DNA of 37,903 nt from Entophlyctis helioformis (taxonomy: Eukaryota; Chytridiomycota; Chytridiomycetes; Chytridiales; Chytriomycetaceae), in the NCBI GenBank assembly GCA_025526915.1, contig JAHLKH010000220.1:1-37903 (forward strand), written 5' to 3'. The notes under the pieces were generated by a model. That model did not search any database and was not told where the DNA came from. It saw nothing but the letters and a program-made list of their open reading frames with translations. The position numbers and the translations under genes are program-made. Of the stretch, positions 17,642 to 37,200 are shown piece by piece. The number at the start of each line of letters is the position of its first letter. The first letter of the stretch is position 1.

Positions 17642-19150
17642 TCACCTGCTTGACGCTTGCAGTTTCTTGATGGTCGACTTGAGCCGCTTGATGGTAGTGG
17701 TCTTGATGTCATCTCCTTGGTTAGCTTCCACAAGCAGTGCCTGTGCCTGGTCCAGCGTAAGACTGCCAAGCAGGACATTGGCAATTTCGGCAGTCCCGGC
17801 CAAGTCGAGTGCTCTGAGCCCAACCGCGTATCCGCATTCCAGCAAGTACGGCAGCTCCTCGGCGTTGCCCAATCTAACCACAGATTCCATGGCGCGGCTT
17901 GATGCGCGGCAGCCTTTGGAGTGCATGTACGTGGCGACGTCAAAGTGTCCATGGATGATGGCCTCGTCCAGCGCGTCTGACGTGTACTCTAAACCGCGGG
18001 TCTCGTGAAGCCACTTGATGACATGAAGACGACCGTATGTAGCCGCGTCACTTATCGCTGCAGCTGTGCATCCTTCCGTCCTGTTCTCATGGAGCCACTT
18101 GATGGCAGGAAAATGGCCGTGCTCAGCCGCCCTATCCATGGCACGAGTCGTGCATCCTTCCGTCCTGTTGGCATGCAGCCACTGGACGACATGTAGATGT
18201 CCGTTGCGAGCCGCGAAATCCATGGCTCGAGTCGTGCATGCCGCACCTAGATCAAACAAGTACTGCAGTACGTCGAGATGCCCACGGCGCGCTACTAGAT
18301 CAACGATCTCATGCCAGTACTCGCTTGCCGCATCATACTCGGCCAGCCAGTCCTGGAGAGTGCAGTACATGACGTCAAGATGCTTGAGCAGATCGAGGAA
18401 CCCATAGAAGATTGCCAGGCGAGCGAGTGCGATCGGATACGTAAAGTCGAGCAGATCAAACCAGCCGTGCCGCATGGGAATGAGAAGCAGGCGGTGGGTG
18501 CTCCAGTCGTCGTTGTTGAACGAGTAGTCGTAGTCGTTCTTGTATGCGTCTGAGCCTGCATATCTTCCCTCGGTGTAGTCAGGAAAGCGCTTGCAGAGAC
18601 GATCGTACATGGAGCGAGAGTGTGCGAGGAGCAGTCCGTTGTCGGCCTCCAGCCAAACGAAAGGCAGCAGATCCAGATCGCCCTGCCAGTCCATCTTGAG
18701 CGCATCGGTCCACAGCTCCATCTTGGTCTCATCGTCGAGTTTGGCTGTGTCGCCGAGCAGTCCGCACAGGAAGCGAGTGAGCGGGCCGGCTGCCTTGAGG
18801 ATCATGGCATGGATCTCGGCGGGCTTGCCGTCCCAGTGGCTGCGTCCGAACGCAAGGTCGCCGGTGGCTGGCGGCACCACATAGCGAGGCACACCTGGCT
18901 GAGCAGTCGTTGCTGCTGGCTGTCCTGGTAACCCTGGCTCGACGGCTTGGCTGCCGCTCGCACCAACGACCTGCTCGACCACAGCCAGCACAATGTCCGT
19001 GCGACCAAGGGCAACCAGCAGCTCGGCTGTGCTCTGCAGCTGGCTCTGCAGACTGCGCACTTGGTCGTCGCTGGCTGCTGCTGCTGCTGCACTGACTGTC
19101 TTTCGTCGCCTCAACTGCATCGTCGCAGCTGCTTGTGGATGTCCTGACAA
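17642..19150 (-). CDS. F-box-like / ankyrin-type repeat protein
   Basis: One uninterrupted frame of 502 residues; the start could be 19150 (MSGHPQ) or the internal MQLRRRK. The order is a basic start, a heptad-like helix (VRSLQSQLQSTAELLVALG), a Pro/Gln linker, an F-box-like segment (WDGKPAEIHAMILKAAGPLTRFLCGLL), and divergent ankyrin-type repeats: RGHLDVLQYLFDLGA, NGHLHVVQWLHANRTEGCT, HGHFPAIKWLHENRTEGCT, YGRLHVIKWLHETRG, HGHFDVATYMHSKGC. A short lysine-rich helix ends the protein. F-box plus ankyrin proteins often act as substrate receptors of SCF ubiquitin ligases; that role is inference here. This repeat style occurs in large families in chytrids, amoebae and giant viruses. The gene is intact although reverse transcriptase scraps lie on both sides. 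Confidence 0.8.
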   Translation of the reverse strand: MSGHPQAAATMQLRRRKTVSAAAAAASDDQVRSLQSQLQSTAELLVALGRTDIVLAVVEQVVGASGSQAVEPGLPGQPAATTAQPGVPRYVVPPATGDLAFGRSHWDGKPAEIHAMILKAAGPLTRFLCGLLGDTAKLDDETKMELWTDALKMDWQGDLDLLPFVWLEADNGLLLAHSRSMYDRLCKRFPDYTEGRYAGSDAYKNDYDYSFNNDDWSTHRLLLIPMRHGWFDLLDFTYPIALARLAIFYGFLDLLKHLDVMYCTLQDWLAEYDAASEYWHEIVDLVARRGHLDVLQYLFDLGAACTTRAMDFAARNGHLHVVQWLHANRTEGCTTRAMDRAAEHGHFPAIKWLHENRTEGCTAAAISDAATYGRLHVIKWLHETRGLEYTSDALDEAIIHGHFDVATYMHSKGCRASSRAMESVVRLGNAEELPYLLECGYAVGLRALDLAGTAEIANVLLGSLTLDQAQALLVEANQGDDIKTTTIKRLKSTIKKLQASSR

Positions 19151-19173
19151 ACTCCGCTCGACGCGACCGCGTC

Positions 19174-19230
19174 CATCTGGTCTGCTCGCTCTCTGTGCCG
19201 TTCAGCGTCAGGCGAGGCATCTGCCAAGGC
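19174..19230 (+). mobile_element. Second reverse transcriptase scrap, homologous to the 17.4 kb fragment
   Basis: The sequence around 19198-19230 matches 17385-17417 at nearly every position (CCGTTCA-CGTCAGGCGAGGC then CCAAGGC) in the same orientation, and translates to VPFSVRRGICQGS against EPFNVRRGVRQGC. It is a copy of RT motif B that stops abruptly where ABCC transporter sequence begins. The two scraps flank the ankyrin gene. Confidence 0.7.
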
Positions 19231-20305
19231 AGTTCGCGTGCGTGGCTGTCGCTTCGTCTGCAGCTCCTCGTATCTACCGTCGTCCTCGTTGTCATCGCAC
19301 TCAGTGCCACCAAGAACATCACTGGCTCGGCTGTAGGTCTTGCCATCTTCGGTGCTCTCAAGATTGGCGAGAACGTTGTGGACACATTGGGCGATGTTGC
19401 CGAGACCGAGGCTGCCTTCAACTCGGTCGAGCGTCTCAACTACTACGCCAACGAGCTGCCGGCCGAGGCACCGCGCGTGATGCCCAACGACCCCAAGTCC
19501 AAGGACGAGTGGCCGACTGCCGGTGCACTTGCCATCCGCGACCTGCAGATCTGCTACGACTCGCGTCCCGACCACGCCGTCATCAAGAACCTGTCGCTCT
19601 CCATCCGTCCTGGCGAAAAGGTCGGCATTGTCGGCCGCACCGGCTCGGGCAAGAGCACGCTCATGACGGCCCTGTTCCGCATCATGGAGGCATCCAAGGG
19701 AATCCATCACCATCGACGGCCGCGACATTGCGACGCTCGGTCTCAAGACGCTGCGCTCTCGCCTGCAGATCATCCCGCAGGAGCCCGTGCTGTTCAAGGG
19801 AACCGTGCGGTCCAACCTCGACATGCTGCAGACGGGGTACACCGACGACCAGCTGTGGGAGTCGCTGTCGCTCGTGGGTCTCAAGGACTACGTGGCTGCG
19901 CAGACGGACAAGCTGGATGCGGCGATCGAGGAGAACGGATCCAACCTGTCGATGGGCCAGCGCCAGCTGCTGTGTCTTGCCAAGGCCATTCTCGCACGTC
20001 CCAAGGTGCTCATCATGGACGAGGCGACGGCGTCGGTGGATGCCGAGGCCGACAAGCGCATCCAAGAGTCGATCCGGTCGCAGTTTGCACACACAACGGT
20101 GCTGAGCATTGCGCACCGTCTCAACACGATTGCGGCGTTTGACCGCGTGCTTGTGCTTGACCAGGGCGAGATTGCCGAGTTTGATGCGCCGCATGTGCTG
20201 CTCGGTCGGGCTGGCTCAGCGTTTGGCGAGCTTGTGGATGCGACTGGTGCTGCCAACGCTGCCGTCATTCGCGAGATTGCGTCTGGCCACTACAACAACG
20301 CCTAA
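19231..20305 (+). pseudogene. ABCC-type ABC transporter, C-terminal fragment
   Basis: Only the last 355 or so residues of a full ABCC (MRP/YCF1-type) transporter, normally near 1,500. It opens inside the second membrane domain (RAWLSLRLQLL) and continues through SVERLNYY and the linker to the second nucleotide-binding domain: GRTGSGKST (Walker A), LSMGQRQLLCLAKAIL (signature), VLIMDEATASVD (Walker B), LSIAHRLNTI (H-loop). One extra A near 19700 shifts the frame inside FRIMEASKG; on both sides the frames read clean family sequence. There is no start codon or signal, and the upstream DNA is a reverse transcriptase scrap plus the oppositely oriented ankyrin gene. It is either a truncated pseudogene or an assembly join. 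The catalytic motifs are intact, so loss would be recent. Confidence 0.85.
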
Positions 20306-20327
20306 TCCATTGTCAATGTGCACCAAC

Positions 20328-20333
20328 AATAAA
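20328..20333 (+). promoter_or_regulatory. Polyadenylation signal AATAAA
   Basis: Canonical AATAAA 23 bp after the ABCC stop codon, in the 89-bp gap before the convergent membrane-protein gene. Confidence 0.65.
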
Positions 20334-20394
20334 CGCGTAGGATCTGTAGATGTATTGGCCGCTGATGACTTCATTTATGCGTTGAAAGGCCGAC

Positions 20395-21909: not shown

Positions 21910-22332
21910 ATGTCTTACATGTCTGTCTGCCTGTGCACCGATTGCATCTCACATTGCATCGCCGCCGCTGCAGTCGTCGATACGACGTTTGCCTTGCTGT
22001 CGGCCCTCATCTTTGTCACTCTTCCATGGGAGAGCACCGTCGATGCCTGTGCCCGCCGCAACGGCAGATGGGAGAGACAGGACCGCCGCGACTGCGAGGA
22101 GGCTCGCGCGACTGCGTTCAACTTCTTGCTCTTCTTCTCCATCTTCCGCTTCGCCGTGCAGTGCGTGTGCGTCTACTATGTCGACCAGTACGCCAGAAAG
22201 ATTCACGCTCAACTTGCCCTTGATGACGCCGAGATGGGGATTGCTCCTTCAGATGACCTTGCCAAGTCTGCTGCTCCTGCCTCACTTGATGCCCCTGCCG
22301 CTCCTCAGCCAACCACCACCACAGCTCCTTGA
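21910..22332 (+). CDS. Small two-helix membrane protein, unknown function
   Basis: A 140-residue open frame, no family recognised. It has a Cys-rich start (MSYMSVCLCTDCISHC), a first hydrophobic segment (TTFALLSALIFVTLPW), a charged loop (ARRNGRWERQDRRDCEE), a second segment (FNFLLFFSIFRFAVQCVCVYYV) and an Ala/Pro/Thr tail. Hydrophobic segments separated by a charged loop argue for a real protein in DNA where random frames are usually Arg/Ala/Pro-rich. Its start is 108 bp from that of the divergent membrane-protein gene, so they probably share a promoter. Confidence 0.55.
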   Translation: MSYMSVCLCTDCISHCIAAAAVVDTTFALLSALIFVTLPWESTVDACARRNGRWERQDRRDCEEARATAFNFLLFFSIFRFAVQCVCVYYVDQYARKIHAQLALDDAEMGIAPSDDLAKSAAPASLDAPAAPQPTTTTAP

Positions 22333-23213
22333 TGCAGCAATGAAGCACACTGGCACTGCAGAAGCCGTGATGGCTTGCCTCGCATTCTTCTGAAAGGCGA
22401 TCGACATGGATTGACTATCAACGCTCGCATTGCCAAGGCGTCTGCAGACTCTGGCCTGCCTGTCCATCCTGCCACTCATGAATCTGCTGTTTGCCATTCT
22501 TGGCCGATCCACGACTGGATGGAATGACGTCCCCTTGCACCTGCTGGGCAGAGCCAAGACTGCCGATGCTAGTGGCAACCCAGTCGCAGCAGCAGATGCC
22601 CGTCCACTTTGTCACAATCTCGCAGGCGGCCTGCTCTCCTCTCGGTCTTGCAAGGCGTCGTTTGACAAGGATCTGCTGTGGCAATATTGAGGACGATATC
22701 GAGGACAGCGCTGCACCGGTTGCAATGCCGCATTCGCAGCCACCATTGCACGGCCGAGACGCTAAGCTTGGAGATGGCACCGAGTCTGCAGCTGCCCGTC
22801 TTGGTTGTGGCAACGGTGTCAAGGAGGAGCTGGCCACAGTGGCTTGCAAGATGTGTCCTGGCTGTGAGCGAGCGCGGACTCTCGGCATCTGCCAAGCCAC
22901 ACTGCGTGCTGCCTGCCTGCCTGCGGGTCGAGCCAGCATGCCAGCCAGTCTCTGGTCTGCCGACCTGCTGACCTGCCCACCTGCCCGACTGGCAGCTGCG
23001 CACCAGCTCGACACGGCATGCGAGCCTGGTCGGCTGACTGCTGTCCCTGCGATGGTCCCTTTGCTGCACGTGCCCAAGAGGTGGCGTCCTGGCGTCATTG
23101 TCGCATCGGACGTGCACTCGCACTCCCACGCATGCCGGACATGTGATGCCAAGAAGCTTCACACTGCGCCAGCATAAAGTACGGGGCCGAGGGACTGCGG
23201 CGAGCTGCCCAGC
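22333..23213. other. 880-bp stretch without a recognisable gene
   Basis: Long open frames cross this stretch on both strands (for example 22491-23177 plus and 22418-23152 minus), but their translations are Ala/Arg/Cys/Pro-rich with no domain, repeat or signal I can name. GC-rich DNA produces such frames by chance. It likely holds the 3' UTR of the small membrane protein and the ceramidase promoter. Confidence 0.5.
23173..23180 (+). promoter_or_regulatory. Possible TATA-like element of the ceramidase gene
   Basis: CATAAAGT lies 34 bp before the proposed ceramidase ATG. It is a weak match and very close to the start, so it may be chance. Confidence 0.3.
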
Positions 23214-24664
23214 ATGTTCAACCTCCAACGCACTCTGTCATCTCCAAACCACTCGCATTTCTGGGGGCCGCCGTCGTCGTCGGTCAACTGGTGCGAGACC
23301 GACTACAATGTGCGTTGTGCTGGCTGTGGATGCTGTGCACTGTCTGTCTTGAATGCCTGTGTTGGCGAGTGATCGAGTGATCGCCTGGCCTGCAAGCAAC
23401 TGACGGTCGGCGGGTCTGCAGGTGACGTCGTATGTGGCCGAGTACTTTAATACCGTGTCGTCGCTTGCCATGGCTGCTGTGGGTCTGCTCGGCGTGCTGC
23501 TGCATCCATGGGCCGAGCGTCGCTTCCACGTCGCCTTTCTCACAACCGTTGCTGGTGAGTGCACTGCTGCGACTTGCGTCTGTGTTTGTGTGTTTGCAGT
23601 CTCTCCACATGGACGCATGCTCACTCGCTCTCACACATACTCGCTCGCTGCTCGATGCGATGCTGGATCGGATCGCCAACCAACCAGTCGGGCTGGGATC
23701 CGTCGCATTCCACGGCACGCTCCACAAGTTTGCGCAGGCTCTCGACGAGGTGCCGATGCTGTACTCGTCGCTCACGTTTGTGTACATTGGCGTGTGCCAG
23801 CGCTACCGTCTCTTGCCATCGCGTCGTCGGCTGTTTGCGACCGTCCTCTGTCTGCACGCCATCGTGACCACGCTGCTGGTGACACTGTCGCACGGCCCGC
23901 TCCAGTTTGCGCTGTTCCACACGAGCTTTGGCACGGCGCATGTGTATGCACTGTACCACGCCGTGCAAGTGTACCGATCTCGCCGAGCTCGTCTGATGGC
24001 GGCGCAGCACTCGCTCACAAGCACGCAATCCAGCAACGGTCACATCCAACAGCAGCAGCAACAAGCACCAAGAGATGCGATCCTGTGGACGTTTGAACGC
24101 GGCGCTGCGCTGTACGGATCAGCCATGGTGTGCTGGATCGTCGACATGACGCTCTGCGAGTACGTCAATCCTGGCTACGAATCCACAGCTGTCCTGCCGA
24201 TCAACCCACAGCTGCATGCATGGTGGCACGTGCTGGTGTCGCTTGGACTGTACAACATGGCGCTGCTCACTCTGGCGGCGCGTGTGGAGACTCGGTCGCT
24301 TCGCAAGGCACAGCGCCGTGCACGCAAGCAGGCAGCCGCACAGGCAGCCGCTGAGCAGGCATCGTTCGAGTCTGGATCGCCTGGCAGCAGTGTCGCGTCT
24401 CATTCTGGATCGGACGGCAGTCCGTTGTCTGACGCTCGCTTCGGCTTTGTCAGGGATGGCGGCTTTGCAGGCATGGACGAGATCGGGCTTGCATTCTGGG
24501 GTGGATTGGTGCCGTATGTTGTTGTTCTGCATAATGGCGCTACTGGGCGTTCGTCGTCGTCTGCTACTGCTGGTTATTCTGGGAACCGGTCTGACAGCAC
24601 TACCAGCTCTGATCGCCAACAACTGCTCAAGTCGAGCAGTGCATACCCCTCGTATCTGCAGTAA
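23214..24664 (+). CDS. Alkaline ceramidase (ACER / YPC1-YDC1 family)
   Basis: Integral ER/Golgi membrane enzyme that hydrolyses ceramide to a sphingoid base and fatty acid. Three exons, 23214-23309, 23422-23554 and 23688-24664, give about 401 residues. Both junctions rebuild family sequence: WCETDYN|VTSYVAEYFNTVSS and TTVA|VGLGSVAFHGTL. Family motifs are WGPPSSSVNWCE near the N-terminus, GSVAFHGTL and DEVPMLYSSLTFVY (His and Asp of the metal site) and HAWWHVLVSLGLYN (the C-terminal HxxxH-type site). Several hydrophobic helices fit the seven-helix fold. The C-terminus, after AARVETRSLRKAQRRARKQ, extends about 120 residues beyond the usual end and is Ser/Gly-rich. The first ATG gives only six residues before the conserved region, so this start is not fully secure. 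Confidence 0.9.
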
Positions 24665-24823
24665 AAGCGTCTCTTCAATCTGTCCATGCAGTGCACTGGC
24701 AACCTTCAACACACGCTTGAGCAGACAGGACAGGCGAGCAAGGAGACTGCAGGCGTCTGCTGGAAGCCAGTCCATATGAGTATGGAACGGTGTTTAATGG
24801 ACAAGCAGATGGAAGGCGTGCGG

Positions 24824-25312
24824 TCAGAGACCCAATGCCGACGGCCGCTGTTTGTGGTAGTCCATCTTCTCGACCTTGACCTCGCCATCGACCAGCTTGT
24901 AGACGTACAGCACGATCGACGTGCCCTGGATGTCCATGAGCACAAAACTCGGCGTTGTCTCGACAAAGGCAGACAGTGGGACGGCTGGCTTTGGTGGCGA
25001 CGCGTTCTGCGGCGTGGGCGAGCCCGCTGCCGAGCCAGCTGGTTGCGCGTCGTGTGCAGCCGCGTCGTTGTCAGGGACGGCATCGTGCGACGGGGATGCC
25101 GATGCCGATGCAGACGCAGCACTGGCAGATGCAGCATGGGCAGCATTGAAGGCGTCAACGACGGCGGCAGGCGGGGGCTGCACAAGCGAGAAGGCGCCCG
25201 TGGCCGAGCCGGGGTTGACAAAGAAGCGGCCCTCGTGCTCAAAGGCCTCAAAGACGTGCGTGTGGCCCGAGATCAGGATGTCAACGTCCAGCTGGCGGGC
25301 GGCCACTTTCAT
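24824..25312 (-). CDS. VPS29: VPS29 retromer subunit, 5' part missing
   Basis: C-terminal part of VPS29, the metallophosphoesterase-fold scaffold subunit of retromer (endosome-to-Golgi retrieval). Clear family sequence: RQLDVDILISGHTHVFEAFEHEGRFF, NPGSATGAFS, PSFVLMDIQG, YVYKLVDGEVKVEKMDYHKQ. A low-complexity Ala/Ser/Pro loop of about 60 residues is inserted between GAFS and TPSFVLMD, where the family has a short loop. The first 105 or so residues of the normal protein, with the early metal-site motifs (GDxH, GNxD/C, HGH), are not present upstream. There the opposite strand starts PUS3 within 37 bp, and in-frame minus-strand sequence soon meets a stop. ATG at 25312 simply falls in the frame. 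It is truncated, rearranged, or joined by an assembly deletion. Confidence 0.85.
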   Translation of the reverse strand: MKVAARQLDVDILISGHTHVFEAFEHEGRFFVNPGSATGAFSLVQPPPAAVVDAFNAAHAASASAASASASASPSHDAVPDNDAAAHDAQPAGSAAGSPTPQNASPPKPAVPLSAFVETTPSFVLMDIQGTSIVLYVYKLVDGEVKVEKMDYHKQRPSALGL

Positions 25313-28744: not shown

Positions 28745-28990
28745 ACAAGTCTCTTATATCTGTCCTGATGCCTTTTGCTTGAATGAATGAATGCTTGCAC
28801 TAGCTATGAACGCTTTGAGAGGCACCAAGGCCACGAAAGGTTGCAAACGCGTGCTTTGCACGACGGGCACAATGAGCCCCCACCCTCTACACGTCTGCCA
28901 ATCAGACGCGTGTTTCAAGTTGAGCGCGCCACTTGCACGACGTGTGCCATTGTCGTGCTCAGGGTCCCCAAGGCGTCCTGCCCATTGCGC

Positions 28991-28998
28991 TATAAAAT
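28991..28998 (+). promoter_or_regulatory. TATA box, second surface-protein gene
   Basis: TATAAAAT 59 bp before the ATG at 29057. Confidence 0.75.
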
Positions 28999-29056
28999 GG
29001 CGGCGACCCGCCCCGTTGCCCGCAGTCCCAATTCCCCACCCTCCCAGCACATAAGC

Positions 29057-29497
29057 ATGTATTTTTCCAAGCGTAGAGCCTCGGCCGTCGTTGTCGCCGC
29101 CGTTCTGGCTGCATGCGAGGCAGTCTCGGCCCAGAAGATGCACCAGGGCACGCAGCTCGTCGTCGTCAACCAAGGCTCAACCTGGGCCACCATGGCTGCC
29201 ACCGCCTACGTCGACGGTGCGTCGGCCGCCACATCCACGTCGGCCGCTACTGCTACCGCTACCGCCGAGCCTGCCGCCCTTGCTCCGGCAGCAACCGCCA
29301 CATCGCTCACGGATGGCTTCAACCTGCCCGTCAAGATTGCCATGCAGTCGGTGGCTGCAGAGGCCAGTGCCACCAGCGCGGTCGCTGATCAGTCGGGATA
29401 CGCCTCCGGCGAAGTCAGCGGTGCAAGCCAGCTTGTCACGACGGCGTTCTCTGCGCTGTCTGCCGTCGGCGTCGCTCTCCTGACGAGCCTCTTGTAA
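29057..29497 (+). CDS. Secreted, probably GPI-anchored Ala-rich surface protein B
   Basis: 146 residues, paralogue of the protein at 27188. Signal peptide MYFSKRRASAVVVAAVLAAC with cleavage probably at VSA, then QKMHQGTQLVVVNQGSTWAT. An Ala/Thr/Ser-rich middle (SAATATATAEPAALAPAAT) is probably O-glycosylated. The C-terminus is small residues (SGEVSGAS) followed by an uncharged hydrophobic tail (LSAVGVALLTSLL), as in GPI-attached proteins. Single exon with a TATA box and a nearby AATAAA, so probably strongly and conditionally expressed. No enzymatic motif is seen. Confidence 0.7.
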   Translation: MYFSKRRASAVVVAAVLAACEAVSAQKMHQGTQLVVVNQGSTWATMAATAYVDGASAATSTSAATATATAEPAALAPAATATSLTDGFNLPVKIAMQSVAAEASATSAVADQSGYASGEVSGASQLVTTAFSALSAVGVALLTSLL

Positions 29498-29506
29498 AGC
29501 ATCACG

Positions 29507-29512
29507 AATAAA
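29507..29512 (+). promoter_or_regulatory. Polyadenylation signal AATAAA
   Basis: AATAAA nine bases after the stop codon of surface protein B. Confidence 0.65.
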
Positions 29513-29622
29513 CCTGATCGTCGCATGTCAGCCTGCCCAGCCGTGCTTCTAACCCGGCGTGTTGTTGCCTGTCGTGGAGCGCTGTGCCCGCAAAACTCCG
29601 ACGTCATCAGTGTCGACGTGTG

Positions 29623-29630
29623 CATAAAAT
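29623..29630 (+). promoter_or_regulatory. TATA-like box, SBP-7TM receptor gene
   Basis: CATAAAAT about 80 bp before the receptor ATG at 29711. Confidence 0.55.
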
Positions 29631-29710
29631 GGGAGGCCGTCCGTCTGCCCGTCTGTCTGTGCCCTGTTCCGACTCGAGAACACAGCCTTCTTGCTCATCT
29701 CGTGAATGCA

Positions 29711-32700
29711 ATGCGCCAACGGCTGACCGTCGACTTGCTGCTGCTGCTGCCGTTGTCACTGCTGCTGCTGTTTCTGTCTGCAGCACCGTCCGCTGTGATG
29801 GGTACGCCGCACGCACACGCTGGCTGTGCCTGATGGACGAAGGAGTTGGCGCTGACTCTGCGTGGTGGCACCGCATCGACACCGCATCACCGCGATGCCG
29901 GACCACAGCGGCACGGCCGGTCGTCAATGTGCTCATGCTGCCAACAGTCAACGCAGACTTTGAGACGGCCGTTCTGCGCAACTTATCGGATGCCTGGTGC
30001 GTGACGGTCTGTCCGCCTGTCCTCTCCCCCACCCCAGCAGTTGGTCCTGGTCATGCAACAACGCAGCCGTTTTCGTCTGTCCGCGTCTGACGCTTGACGG
30101 CAACCGCGTCTTCTTGTCAACTGTCATGGCCATGAAGCCTTAACCGTCCCAACTGACGCTGCTTCTCCATGGCGCAGGAGCGTGACATCGGGGATAGACA
30201 TCCAAATCACTATCCTCGACTCGTCAAACACGGGCACTGCGTTTGGAGACCTTGTGCTCAACTCGTACCTCAAGCCCCGCCGCACCGAGTACGACATTTT
30301 TCAGATCGACATTGTGTGGCCAGGCGATATGGCGGCGTACTTGCTGGATCTATCGCCGTACCTGAGCCCGGATGATCTAGCGCCGTTTATGCCGGCGATT
30401 CTGGACGCAGATCGCATCGACGGTCGGTATGTGGCGCTGCCCTTCTTTACAGACTTTGGGCTGCTGTACTACAGGCGTGACTGTAAGTGGAGGTGTTGTG
30501 GCAGTGCTCACACGGCGAGCCACACTGAGTGAGTCTGGCTCCAACGCATCTAGTGCTGCAAAAGTATGGATTCAGCGGGCCGCCCAGGACATGGGACGAG
30601 CTGGAGATCATGGCGCGCAAGATACTAGACGGAGAGCGGCCAACGCGTCCAAGCCTGTCTGGGTTCTCTGGACAGCTCAACAACTACGAAGGCTTGACCT
30701 GCAACGTATGTCGCTTGTGCGCCAATCGCGAGACACACCATTGACACGGCTGCGCAACCTCCCCACAGTTTGCCGAATGGCTTGGTGCAGCAGGCGTCCC
30801 TCTGCCCATCAAAGCCGACAAGACCATCCACTTCGATACTCCGCAGGTGCGCTCGTTTCTGACGCGGTTCCGCAACTGGGTCGGCGACATTATCTCTCCC
30901 ACGACTCTGCTCTTTGACGAAGGCGCGTCGTTCAAACAGTGGATCGCCGGCAACACTGTGTTTATGCGGTCGTGGGTCAATGTGATCAAGACGACCACCG
31001 ATGCCAACGTCTCGTTTCCGTGGGACACTTCCCAGGTGGGTGGCGGCCGTCCACTTGATGCCCATATGGATCAGAGTCGCATACTGATGGGTTCCGAGTG
31101 GGCAGTTGCTTGGCTATAGCACAGATATCGGGCCATCGACGCTGGGCGGCTGGCATTTAGGCGTCTCGCATGCAACCAAGAACCCAGACGCTGCCGCTGC
31201 TGCCATCAAGTTCCTCACGTCTGCAGCTGTCCAGAAAGCGCGTGCTGTTCGCCACGGGATACTGCCCACCATCCCTGCCTTGTACAATGGTATGGTTTTG
31301 GTAGTGTGAATGGTTTGCGTTGGATTGCTTACAAAGGCTGAATGGACAGACGCGGATGTGTGCCAAGTCATTCCAAAGTGCCAGCTGTTTGCCAATATGA
31401 GTTTTGTGGTGCGGCCGTCTGCACAGTCATCACCAAAGTACACGAGCGATCTTTCCAAGTTGCTCTACGACAGCGGTGCGCACACTCCAGTTGCTTATTC
31501 GCACATCCCATACTGTACTGACCAACACATATACTGGATGGATGGATGGATGGACAGTGCACGAGTACCTTGTCAGCAACATTAGCCTCGACACGCTCAT
31601 GTCCATCCTTATGCGCCAGACATCCAAAATCATTGGCACGTACAGCGTGGATGCCAAGTTTATCGACTGGGCAGACCCGCTTGGCGCAACGTTTGTGGTG
31701 CTCAATGGAATCGGCTTTGCTGCTGCTGTTGCCACGATGGTCATGATGTTTGTGCACGCAAACCACGAGGCCATCAAGTCTGGCGGCTGGGTGTACCTGC
31801 TTCTTGTATGCGCAAATGCCTCGTTTCCATGCGTCCGGGTTCGAACGAATGATTGCTGACGCTGGCGGCAGGTCCTCGCAGGCGTGTTTTTGGGATACGC
31901 GTCCATTCTGTTGTACACGGGACCGCTCAATGATGTCAAGTGCATCATGCAGCCATGGTTCTTGACGCTCGCGTTCAGTGTTTGCATGTCGACGCTGTGC
32001 ATCAAGAACTGGCGCACATCACGTGTCTTTAACAACCCCATGGTAATGTCTGCCTGCTGCCGGCAGTCTTGCGACTGAGCGTCGACTGACACGAATGGCG
32101 CCACAGAAAGGAGGTGCGCCAACCAATATCCGGCTGCTCATGTACATTGGCACGGCATGCCTGGTCAATGTTGCCCTGTTGCTTGCATGGACCATCATTG
32201 CGCCACCCAAGCCGGCTGTGATCGTGGTCAACGATCCCGACGCGTACAGCGTGTGCCGCAATGACACCAACCCATCTGGCCACATGGCGTTTACCATTGC
32301 CGTCTTTCTTTACAATGTCGGCATTCTCGTGGCAGGTGAGATTGTCTGTTGGATGCGTGAATTCAAACTGGGACATGGACTGACACGATGCAATGTGGGC
32401 ACGCGAAAAAAGGCGTATGGTATGCGTACCTCACCCGCCACGTCTTTGCGCAGTTCAACGACTCGCACAGCATCGCCATCATCACCTACAACACCATACT
32501 CTGCTGCATAGTCGGCGTGCCCATTCTGTACGCCGAGGGTCTGGGCGTCCGTGTGCACTACACTCTGCGCTCGGCCGTCATCTTTGCCATCACAACCGTC
32601 GTGCTCGTTGGTCTGTTTTACAAGAAACTCCTCATCGTCCTCGGGTACCACGCGTTTGGCAAGGACAAGCTCACAATCATGCTGGAGCGCCGGCTCAACC

Positions 32701-33385
32701 GGCCCAGCAACGCCTCGTCTCGCGGACACCAGGAAAAGGTAACGACACGGGTACCCAAACTATCGAGTCGCGCCAGCAGCTTTGGCGGGCAGGGATCGTC
32801 GTCGTCGACTGGCCAATCGCAGACTGCGGCACCTGTTCGCGATAGTATGGAGTCGGTGTGGCTGAATGCACGGGTAGCCTCGGTGACGCTGGCCGAGTGC
32901 GTTGCGTTCAAGGCGCATGTCCGCACAGGCCGGTTTCTAGCGTTCCTGTCCATGTGGCGCAGACGGCGGCTCATGTACGTGCCGCATCTGCAGCTCATGG
33001 TCCTCCGCGACACGGAGACTGGCGTCGATGCACTGGATGTAAGGGCCGCTGTTTCCACACCTGCCCGTGCTCTACTGCTGGATGCAACATCTCTGGTGTG
33101 CGACTGCTGACTGGCTTTGGGCAGACGACAACCACATACTGCATATGGGATGTGCGCATCGTGTCTGCGGCGACCGACAACCCAGAGCTGCCACACGTCA
33201 CTGTGCGCATCAACCACAGCGTGTATCTGGACATTCTGTTCTCTGGCCAGGAGGCGTGCCGATTCTGGATGGGCGTGTTCCATCGGATCCAGTCTGGGTC
33301 GACGGCGATGGCGTCGATGGAGGAAGGGTCGCATGACGAGACGTCCGACATGATCGCCACCAGCGGCAGCCAAAGTCAGAGGTAG
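29711..33385 (+). CDS. Seven-helix class C-type receptor with bacterial-type sugar-binding (SBP) ectodomain
   Basis: Twelve exons: 29711-29801, 29909-29996, 30178-30482, 30554-30705, 30769-31035, 31106-31289, 31350-31475, 31558-31805, 31872-32042, 32107-32335, 32413-33038 and 33125-33385. All phases agree and give about 915 residues. Residues 1-25 are a signal peptide (DLLLLLPLSLLLLFLSAAPS). Residues 30-435 follow the fold of extracellular solute-binding proteins of ABC sugar importers: DIFQIDIVWPGDMAAYLLDL, YVALPFFTDFGLLYYRRDLL, PRTWDELEIMARKI, STLGGWHLGVSHATKNPDAA. Residues 445-696 hold seven hydrophobic helices of the class C GPCR type, with the conserved Cys pair (DVKCIMQPW before TM3; YSVCRND in loop 2) and YNTILCCIVGVPILY in TM6. 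A Ser-rich tail follows, then a stretch of 120 or so residues (FLAFLSMWRRRRLMYVP to EACRFWMGVFHRI) that may be a PH-like fold. Probably a plasma-membrane sensor of a sugar or similar solute. Confidence 0.85.
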
Positions 33386-33488
33386 CAGGCGCAGTGGTAG
33401 CCAGTCGGAAGATGATCTTTGCTGAATGAATGCACCATACTAACATGCTGTTGGGTGCTGTTGGATACGAGCGCATTCATTTTGTCGG

Positions 33489-33590
33489 TAAGGCGAAGTA
33501 GTTGAGTTGAAGCAGGTAAGGCGAAGTAGTCGAGTTGAAGTTGAAGCAGTTGAGGTGCTGAGAGGGCAAGGCGAAGCAGTCGAGTTGAAG
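33489..33590. repeat. Short imperfect tandem repeat
   Basis: Three copies of AAGGCGAAG(T/C)AGT(T/C)GAGTTGAAG with spacers, between the convergent ends of the receptor and uS19m genes. No gene is seen in this 222-bp gap. Confidence 0.7.
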
Positions 33591-33607
33591 ACAGACAGCC
33601 AGCCAGC

Positions 33608-33859
33608 CTAGCGGTCCTTCTTCTTGAACGAGAACGGCTTGCGGGTTGTGGAGAACTCGCCCAGCTTCTTGCCGACCATCTGCTCAGTCACAAAGACGGG
33701 CAGGTGCGTCTTGCCGTTGTGGACCAGGAACTTGCGGCCGACGTGCGACGGCAGGATGGTGGACGAGCGCGCCGCCGTGATGATGGGCTCGGCGGCGTTG
33801 GTGGCCGTCATGCGGGGGAACGGCACAAAGAACGGGCCCTTCCACACGGCTCTCGGCAT
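33608..33859 (-). CDS. Mitochondrial small-subunit ribosomal protein uS19m
   Basis: 83 residues, one exon. Start [17 protein letters not shown], then [42 protein letters not shown] and a basic end FSFKKKDR. These are the S19 signatures (SxIxPxxVGxxxxVxNGKxxxPV and VGxKLGEFxxTR). The protein binds the 3' domain of small-subunit rRNA in the 30S head. Nuclear location and close resemblance to fungal RSM19 point to the mitochondrial ribosome. The frame continues upstream of this ATG, but that part is CA/AC repeat and not family sequence. Confidence 0.9.
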
Positions 33860-34241
33860 GGCGTGCGCTGCGGTGGTTGTGTGTGTGTGTGGTTGTGTAG
33901 TTGTGGTTGTGGTTGTGGTTGTTGTAGTTGTTGTAGTTGTTGTGGTTGTACAAGCAGTCGTCGCAGTCGCCGAAAGAGATCTCGCCGTCAAGCCGTTCGT
34001 CGACGTCGTTTTTTTCCAGCTCTGCGACCGCGACGAGACCTCTTGCAGACACCTCGCAGACACCTCGCAGCTGTAAGCACGCACGCTGGCTGGCCCGTAC
34101 GCACGCCTGTAAGCAAACTGACAGACGCCCGCCGACGCCGCCATACAAACAGACAACAGACAACCGCCCAGCGACCGACAACCGACAGCCGACAACCGAC
34201 AACCACACGACGCCCTCTGACCGCCCAGCGAGCCGCCCCGC
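33860..34241. promoter_or_regulatory. Divergent promoter region, uS19m / RPA1
   Basis: 382 bp shared by two divergent ribosome-biogenesis genes. Next to uS19m is a GT/GTT run (about 33875-33950); next to RPA1 is an ACAACCGACA repeat block (about 34145-34210). No TATA box and no gene seen. Confidence 0.5.
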
Positions 34242-37200
34242 ATGAACATCTCCAACGCCGTGTCTGCGCAGGTCGGCGCCGTCCACTTCTCGTTCTACTC
34301 GGCCAGCGACGTGCGCAAGCTCTCGGTCAAGCACATCACAAACCCGCTCATCTTTGACAACCTCGACCATCCCACTGCCGGCGGTCTGTACGACTCGGCC
34401 CTCGGCCCCTACGACAAGGGCGAAGTGTGAGTCGCATTCATCGCATGCCCGCGCAGACGCCGACGTCTTTTTTGTTGTTGTCGTCGTGCTGCTGCCATGC
34501 CGTGCCGTACAGACCTGCGGCCGTGCCATACAGACATGCGGCCATGCCATGCCATACAGACCTATACACACTGGTGGACGCACAGGCTAACCCCTGCGAT
34601 CCACCCGCTGCGCCTCGGCTCGACAGATGCACCACCTGCCACCTCGGCCACTCCCTGTGCCCGGGCCATTTCGGCCACATTGAGCTGTCCGTGCCCGTCT
34701 ACAACCCCATCACCTTCCGTCTGCTGTACAAGCTGCTGCAGTCCACCTGCTACTACTGCCACCGTCTGCGCACCTCCCGCACCGTCATCCACCATTTCGG
34801 CGCAAAGCTCAGACTCGTGCAGGCCGGCCTGATCGTCGAGGCCTCGCAGCTCGACCAGATCATCTCGGTCCGTGGTGGGGCCGCCAAAAAGGACAAGGCG
34901 GCCACAAAGACCGCCAAGCCCAAGGCGTCCAAGTCGGCCTCGGCTGTCGTCGACAACGAGGCTGCCGAAGACAATGGCGGCGACGACGACAACGACAACG
35001 ACAACGACAGCGACAATGACCAGGACGACAACGACGATGCGTACATGGACGCTCTCGAGGCCGCTGCCGCCGAAGAGGCCAACGATCCCGCTCTCGCCCA
35101 TCTGCCGCCCAATGCGTCGGCCTCGGAGCGCATCATTGCACGCATCGAAGCCTTTGTCGACAAGGCCTTTGCCAACGCCAACGCGAACCCCAAGTGCGTT
35201 GCCGCAAAGACCACGCTGGTCACCGACAACCTGCGCCGTCTCGAGCGCCAGTTCCTACAGGCGATCCCGTCGCTTGCGTGCCAAAACTGTGGCGGCCAGT
35301 CGCCAAAGTTCCGCACAGAGGCCCAGACCAAGATCTTTGAGCGTCCGCTGGCTGCCAAGCAGCGCTCGCTCATGAACGCGCGCAACCTCAAGTTTGAGCC
35401 GCTGTTTGGCGAGTCGTCGTCCTCTGCTGACGCCCCAGCTGCCAGATCGGCACCGCTTGACCGCCGCGTCAACGTGTCGCTTTCTGCCGATGATGTGTAT
35501 TCCGTCGCCGGTGTCGACCCAGAGACGGCCCCCGCCGACGGCACGCCTAGAGACACGTACCTCACGCCTCTGCAGGTGCGCGCTCACTTGGAGCTGCTCT
35601 GGAAGCGCGAGCAGACCATCCTCGACGTGCTCTACGGCACTCCCCAGAAGGACGGTACGCGCGTGTCAAGCCCAGACATCTTCTTCCAGGACGTCGTGTC
35701 TGTGCCCCCGAACCGTTTTCGTCCGCTGTCCAAGATGGGCGACATGATGTACGAGCACCCGCAGAACATCCATCTGACCGAGATCATCAAGTCCAACCAC
35801 GCCATCCAGGACCTCCAGCTCCAGGAACGCGAGGCTCTGTCCCAGCTTGCTGGCGCCGATCCCAAGCTTCTGCAGCTGCGTCGCGCCGAGTACCTCAAGC
35901 GCACGGTCGAGTCGTGGATCAAGCTGCAGCAGAGCGTCAACTACCTCATCGACAGCTCCAAAGCCCCGCTCGCTGCTGGTGGCAAGCCTGCCCCGCCTGG
36001 CGTGCGCCAGATTCTCGAGAAGAAGGAGGGTCTGTTCCGCAAGCACATGATGGGCAAGCGTGTCAACTACGCTGCCCGCAGTGTCATCTCGCCCGATCCA
36101 TACATTGAGACCAACGAGATTGGCATCCCGCCCGTGTTTGCCACCAAGCTGACGTACCCCGAGCCTGTCACGCACCACAACGTCAAGGAGCTGCGCAAAA
36201 ACGTCATCAACGGCCCCACCAAGTGGCCCGGTGCCGCCTATGTGCAGAACGAGGACGGATCGCTTGTCAACCTGGCCATGTTTGACGAGGCTGGCCGCAC
36301 GGCCATTGCCAACCAGCTGCTGACTCCCAGCATGCACCACGGCGACACCAACACGGCGTACCACTTTTCACACACCAACAAGAAGGTGTACCGCCACCTG
36401 CGCAACGGCGACTTTCTCCTGCTCAACCGTCAGCCGACGCTGCACAAGCCGTCCATCATGGCGCACACGGCACGCGTCCTGCCCAACGAGAAGACGATCC
36501 GCATGCACTACGCCAACTGTAACACGTACAATGCCGATTTCGACGGTGACGAGATGAACGCGCACTTGCCGCAGAACGAGCTTGCGCGTGCCGAGGCCAT
36601 GCTGATTGCCCGCACCGACCAGCAGTACCTGGTTCCCACGGACGGCGGTGTGCTCCGCGGTCTCATCCAGGACCACGTGGACGCTGGTGTCGACATGTGC
36701 TCGCGTGACACCTTCTTCACGCGCGAGGAGTACCTGCAGCTCGTGTATGCCGGCCTTCTTCCCGAGGGCTCTGCATCGCTCGCTCTCGGCAATGGCAACA
36801 TCGAAGAGAAGATCAAGATTGGCCGCCATGGCCGTATTGTCACGCTGCCGCCTGCCATCTTCAAGCCCACGGCCAGATGGACGGGCAAGCAGATCATCTC
36901 GACCATCCTTGTCAACCTCATTCCCGAGGACCGCGACCTCCTCAACCTCAAGTCCAAGTCGCGCATCCCGGCCAAGCAGTGGGGCCCCACGGCACCCGAG
37001 GAGCAGCAGGTGCTCTTCATGGACGGATACCTGCTCACTGGTATCCTGGACAAGTCGCAGTTTGGTGCGAGTGCCCAAGGGTTTGGTGCACGCCATGTAC
37101 GAGGTGTACGGAGCACCGTATGCGGGCAAGCTGCTGTCTATTCTTGGCCGGCTGTTCACAACGTACCTCCAGTTTTGCCGGCTTCACCTGTCGCATGGAC

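Follow-up and report, generated by a model that had tools for sequence, protein, structure and literature searches.

Contig JAHLKH010000220.1 (C220) belongs to the 29.6 Mb genome of Entophlyctis helioformis, which is assembled in 482 contigs, and its whole 37,903-nucleotide stretch is referred to here as the window. The window contains, at positions 29711..33385 of the plus strand, a gene for a class C seven-helix (7TM) receptor whose extracellular sensor is a type II solute-binding protein (SBP) of the ABC-importer kind. The gene comprises 12 exons (29711-29801, 29909-29996, 30178-30482, 30554-30705, 30769-31035, 31106-31289, 31350-31475, 31558-31805, 31872-32042, 32107-32335, 32413-33038 and 33125-33385) that join in frame to 915 codons and a stop. 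Splicing was inferred from the DNA sequence; all 11 introns are GT-AG and 60-181 bases long, and spliced alignment of the product back to the window recovers identical exons. Twelve exons with matching phases had been proposed in an earlier, sequence-only reading of the locus, and the in-frame join and the spliced alignment arrive at the same model.

The encoded protein consists of a signal peptide (exon 1, 29711..29801; hydrophobic residues 7-25, assigned from hydropathy alone), the type II SBP ectodomain (residues ~34-433, exons 2-8, 29917..31643), the class C seven-helix domain (residues 441-692, exons 8-11, 31665..32627), a Ser/Thr-rich linker evident from the sequence (residues 693-780, 32628..32891) and a conserved C-terminal tail domain (residues ~781-887, 32892..33298) that contains intron 11. 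Exon 8 (31558..31805, residues 405-487) carries the end of the SBP, a short linker and transmembrane helices 1 and 2 (TM1-TM2) within a single open frame, and the SBP-7TM junction thus falls inside this exon. The hydropathy profile shows a single N-terminal peak and peaks for seven helices at residues 450-689, as expected from the signal peptide and seven helices previously recognized.

Pfam places SBP_bac_1 at residues 96-345 (E 6.6e-22; 79.3 bits against a cut-off of 26), also matches SBP_bac_8 (E 7.6e-15), and places 7tm_3 at residues 441-692 (E 1.2e-46; 159.9 bits against a cut-off of 33.5), with E-values that argue against a chance assignment. No other family is matched up to E 10. ANF_receptor, the type I flytrap, is absent at the same limit, and the same library detects it in the proteins P0121, P0123, P0125 and P0131. 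The predicted fold of a Phlyctochytrium arcticum relative (P0003) is likewise SBP-type and matches SBP structures spanning residues 27-432. The sequence and, for this relative, the predicted fold therefore agree on an importer-type ectodomain, as had been claimed, and speak against an ordinary ANF (type 1) fold. The seven-helix domain is also recovered by exon-wise 7tm_3 matches and, among the PDB sequences, by mGlu2 (2.8e-15) and GABBR2 (7.8e-15). Class C receptors carry a hallmark pair of cysteines, one in TM3 and one in extracellular loop 2; the candidates here are C511, which aligns with a mGlu2 cysteine where TM3 begins, and C594, which sits in extracellular loop 2 but out of register with the loop cysteine of mGlu2. 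SBP similarity extends to residue 411 (to 433 in the 1eu8 alignment) and the 7tm_3 match starts at 441, which leaves no room for a Cys-rich domain and bears out the earlier proposal of an SBP fused to a class C module with no such domain between them.

A second copy of the gene is located at C106:55500-61000, which is 98% identical in one piece to window positions 28851-34377. The deposited protein BC831DRAFT_468454 (P0001; hypothetical protein, 853 residues) is 99% identical to the window protein and shares residue changes with the C106 copy, of which it is the deposited product. The exons of the two copies differ at 43 of 2,748 bases and the aligned introns at 30 of 919. Of the exon substitutions, 6 fall at first, 1 at second and 36 at third codon positions, and synonymous changes account for 36 of the 42 altered codons (an inserted signal-peptide codon is uncounted); this excess of third-position and synonymous changes indicates that the reading frame is under selection. 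P0001 runs into intron 11 and terminates there, and it therefore lacks exon 12 (33125..33385) and half of the tail domain. Three observations support exon 12: it continues the tail domain, a paralog on C53 has a GTAAG...CAG intron at the matching tail position, and its differences between C220 and C106 are mostly synonymous (5 of 7 changed codons, none of the 7 within residues 830-887). A further relative on C148 has no intron at this position. The view of C106 as a plain allele of C220 loses support: across the gene region the two contigs are colinear at 98% identity, but window positions 21924-25306 (21.9-25.3 kb) match C106:76002-79803 inverted and displaced by ~15 kb relative to the receptor region, with a closer copy on C181, and the two contigs are thus not simply colinear.

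Searched against the genome, the ectodomain has 27 matches at exon level, spread over five contigs (C220, C106, C53, C148 and C195). C53 encodes a full SBP-7TM-tail paralog that is 39% identical, and C148 and C195 (L040 and L041) carry a near-identical pair of SBP receptors, each interrupted by a frame break at its own position, for which sequencing error and decay are indistinguishable. A protein search whose query alignment begins past the signal peptide finds 281 proteins at E <= 0.001, 120 of which are listed. Besides P0001, these include P0003 of P. arcticum, with 880 residues and 36% identity across 74% of the query, and the metagenomic P0004 (834 residues), both with SBP_bac_1 and 7tm_3, P0005 of P. 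bullatum (552 residues), which has the same two domains in a gene model without TM1-TM2, and P0002, a triple SBP. The remaining 115 have no 7tm_3 among their precomputed domains, and all have SBP domains except P0017, for which none is listed. The search for the same architecture elsewhere, as the sequence-only reading had suggested, thus yields full-length relatives in P. arcticum and in a metagenome. With the whole protein as query, 7,998 candidates were scored and the deposited copy is the sole match, probably because the list filled with low-complexity words; these searches score the best word-sharing candidates only, so that failure to find a receptor elsewhere, such as those published for Allomyces, is uninformative.

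The seven-helix domain has 50 exon-level 7tm_3 matches on 22 contigs of the genome. Type I receptors that combine ANF_receptor with 7tm_3 are present on C6, C165, C55 and C81 according to precomputed domains in a 20-protein search, and P0121 and P0123 were scanned and contain both domains. Two metagenomic proteins, P0129 (by domain scan) and probably P0130, combine a Chlamydia-PMP-type repeat ectodomain with 7tm_3, an arrangement resembling the gut-fungal receptors with a pectin-lyase fold.

The closest solved relative of the ectodomain is 6jar, an alpha-glycoside-binding importer protein that aligns with residues 53-411 (E 4.5e-64, 37% identity). This protein, solved in 6j9w, 6jar and other entries and presumably from Thermus, belongs to a common sequence family with the receptor ectodomain and with 1eu8, the trehalose/maltose-binding protein of Thermococcus litoralis (E 9.2e-41, alignment reaching residue 433). 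Unlike the window receptor, these importer proteins are soluble subunits with no 7TM. The depositors mutated R49, D118, W287 and R356 in the alpha-glycoside-binding protein, as known from the PDB titles alone, and in the phmmer alignment these positions pair with A81, D152, W317 and R384, identical in 3 of 4. On this resemblance, the gene probably encodes a class C receptor that senses a small alpha-linked extracellular sugar, a disaccharide like trehalose, maltose or sucrose being the likeliest; both the ligand and the signalling are putative assignments. Some observations weigh against this reading. The R49 equivalent is A81 and is not kept, in a region where the alignment is gapped nearby, and the SBP consensus is changed at N280, P282 and Y283, so that the ligand may differ; the folded model, moreover, is that of the P. 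arcticum relative rather than of the window's own protein.

The ectodomain may instead have drifted to a different specificity, whether for some other sugar or an oligosaccharide of the cell wall, or to binding nothing, as in one GABA-B subunit, and this is a serious alternative, although the less probable one. P0001 keeps 54 of 77 SBP consensus columns (columns at least 90% identical among 16 SBP-only proteins) and changes the other 23; the four receptors in the alignment jointly keep 43. According to structure titles, the ligands of the wider fold family range from trehalose to cello-oligosaccharides and sulfoquinovosides. Drift is opposed by the retention of D152, W317 and R384 and by the alpha-glycoside binders being the best PDB matches, which favor the disaccharide-type sensor.

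The cytosolic tail links this receptor to others of the genome. After the Ser-rich linker, the window protein and the paralogs on C53 and C148 have a related terminal block of ~105 residues. The non-SBP receptors on C6, C55, C165 (two), C319, C44 and C128 (the last by eye) have a strongly conserved terminal block, and a diverged form is seen by eye in the C80 receptor and in P0125 of Polyrhizophydium stewartii. Profile comparison of three SBP-type tails, with a corrected C53 reading, against seven others (C6, C55, two of C165, C80, C319 and C44) gives a probability of 79.5 and a score of 35.8. The maximum among 298 scored column-shuffled controls is 19.9, and a reversed profile reaches 13.8. 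Under the first C53 reading, 300 scored shuffles reach at most 20.6, and the corrected reading gives the slightly stronger match. The score above all controls indicates that the SBP-type and the other receptors have a tail in common in this genome. Beyond it, the tails of P0003 and P0004 have no significant likeness to those of E. helioformis in profile comparison (probabilities 2.1 and 0.1 against the SBP-type tails, 2.0 and 0.1 after the C53 correction; 0.1 and 0.1 against the other tails). When both are added, the profile matches the other tails at 9.4 instead of 74.3 (first C53 reading). A tail sequence common to all chytrid SBP receptors, which these two tails do not match, was accordingly dropped.

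The sequence-only reading had described the tail as possibly PH-like. A PH domain has seven strands capped by a C-terminal helix, and the AlphaFold model of P0121 contains six strands (793-802, 806-817, 822-827, 862-866, 873-878 and 881-887), arranged as three strands, a loop and three strands, followed by a helix at 891-908. The block means of model confidence (pLDDT) are 60-78 for the strands and 32-48 for the middle loop, with 54 at the extreme C-terminus. The tail model of P0003 has a similar strand-helix order at pLDDT below 50; the structure comparison of P0003 covers its SBP span, 27-432, and is uninformative on the tail. The predicted strand-helix order of these relatives suggests a PH-like tail, as a tentative assignment. 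Searches of Pfam and of PDB sequences, in which diverged PH domains can be missed, match no PH family: Pfam gives no meaningful hit, and the top PDB hits (E 0.88 and 0.83) are unrelated. A tail without a folded domain, either disordered or forming a coiled coil, seems unlikely. The lack of a Pfam or PDB sequence match, the low-confidence P. arcticum model and an apparent coiled coil at the end of a P. planicorne ANF receptor (by eye) point that way, and the conserved block in other receptors of the same genome and the strand confidence of the P0121 model argue for a fold.

A membrane-anchored sugar-capturing protein or uptake helper, in which the 7TM is only an anchor and does not signal, is a still less likely reading of the whole protein. 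Membrane-anchored SBPs are described in gut fungi by Seppala 2016 (PMC5168858). The E. helioformis genome itself has two SBP_bac_1-like genes in opposite orientation on C58, L042 (C58:23500-29000) and L043 (C58:2500-8000). The L042 frame ends with a single hydrophobic helix and no 7tm_3 match is listed on C58, and the two may be single-pass membrane SBPs as in gut fungi. Against a mere anchor, the 7tm_3 match of the window protein is full length (2-251 of 251), and its KNWR and FNDS motifs align with KTYR and FNEA of mGlu2, which are functionally relevant there. Exons 8-11 differ between the copies at 4 of 1,274 bases, 3 of them synonymous, a weak argument given that introns 8, 9 and 11 are identical. 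G-alpha genes are present in the genome, and a cluster of G-alpha exons at C33:23190-42559 represents approximately nine tandem gene copies.

A pair of adjacent genes, or a chimera in which assembly or contamination joined a bacterial SBP to a fungal 7TM gene, would be conceivable for a splicing pattern not taken from transcripts, and is rejected, with hardly any residual probability, on the strength of the junction within exon 8, the introns found all along the SBP part, the identical structure of the C106 copy, the paralogs on C53 and C148/C195, and the full-length proteins of P. arcticum and a metagenome, which together uphold the claim of a single gene.

The implied novelty of the SBP-7TM architecture, in contrast, does not stand, as it is already published for Allomyces and for gut fungi. 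Krishnan 2012 describes SBP_bac_1 in eight Glutamate-family (class XVI) receptors of Allomyces macrogynus, the type I domain BMP in two receptors of this species, and ANF in most fungal members (PMC3251606). Both flytrap types within one fungus are thus not new either. Like the window receptor, the A. macrogynus receptors have an SBP_bac_1 ectodomain and 7tm_3 and no NCD3G (Cys-rich) domain in that description; they differ in belonging to the Blastocladiomycota, and the comparison is at the level of the published description and not of residues. Fungal class C members often lack the ANF flytrap (PMC3251606, PMC5168858). In gut fungi (Neocallimastigomycota), about half of roughly 100 class C receptors have type II SBPs, as here, and these resemble sugar-uptake SBPs such as palatinose and trehalose/maltose/sucrose binders (PMC5168858). 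No ANF-type receptor is recorded there for gut fungi, unlike E. helioformis, which has both types. Glutamate-class receptors are enriched in Blastocladiomycota and Chytridiomycota (Liu 2025, PMC12842992), and a 2026 review treats the fungal glutamate-like class (XVI) as uncharacterized and without a known ligand (PMC13308352). In the open-licence literature that was found, no named tail domain, PH-like or otherwise, is described for fungal class C receptors, and the tail domain common to SBP-type and ANF-type receptors may be new.

The animal GABA-B and mGlu receptors have the same class C 7TM, and GABA-B likewise lacks a Cys-rich domain, and they differ by their type I (ANF) flytrap; we know of no tail domain of this kind in them. 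In a tree of 6 receptor ectodomains and 39 of the 115 SBP-only proteins (every third), the receptors form one side of a branch with SH-aLRT 100 by a quick method, a single ectodomain clade. The direction and number of the fusions are inferred: a bacterial sugar-binding protein was probably the source of the ectodomain, captured a single time and placed on an existing fungal class C receptor. We put forward tentatively that chytrid class C receptors are a modular chassis, in which a 7TM with a previously undescribed, probably PH-like tail carries interchangeable flytraps, type I or captured bacterial type II disaccharide-binding ones, in one genome, and that the tail is a fungal coupling element absent from animal class C receptors. 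Telling against the sugar-receptor reading with its proposed origin are the unmatched tails of P0003 and P0004, the many metagenomic sequences among the 39 SBP-only proteins, whose bacterial nature is presumed, and the 20-row 7TM tree, where the SBP-type receptors form one clade in 6% of 200 bootstrap trees; their monophyly is not rejected (AU p 0.252).

Around the receptor gene, a small Ala/Thr-rich, secreted-looking protein with a hydrophobic C-terminus resembling a glycosylphosphatidylinositol anchor signal (by eye) is encoded at 29057-29497 of the plus strand and ends ~210 bases upstream. Just downstream, an open reading frame at 33608-33860 of the minus strand resembles ribosomal protein S19 (by eye). 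Positions 19228-20346 are a high-copy repeat, with 25 other listed genome places at 92-98% identity, and overlap an ABC-transporter-like open reading frame at 19096-20142 (by eye). Positions 18001-19180, within the minus-strand open reading frame 17642-19201, belong to a multicopy family with 11 other listed places at 76-82% identity, short extra pieces excluded. This repeat comparison scored the best 38 of 477 candidates and does not list the known C106 receptor match, so that its gaps are uninformative.

By analogy with the importer family, the two SBP lobes would close on the sugar. The closure would be passed through the linker of ~8-30 residues directly to the helices, with no Cys-rich domain in between, and the 7TM, judged by its family and the G-alpha genes of the genome, would then activate a G protein. 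The tail domain might, more speculatively, dock to a membrane lipid, to G-beta-gamma or to a partner protein. Such a receptor could serve in nutrient or host sensing, glycan sensing included. It is close enough to solved trehalose/maltose binders for candidate ligands and residues to be named, which puts the identification of a ligand, the first for any fungal class C receptor, within the reach of direct tests. The co-occurrence in one genome of type I and type II flytraps, mounted on receptor bodies that have a tail in common, provides a tractable case of ectodomain exchange.
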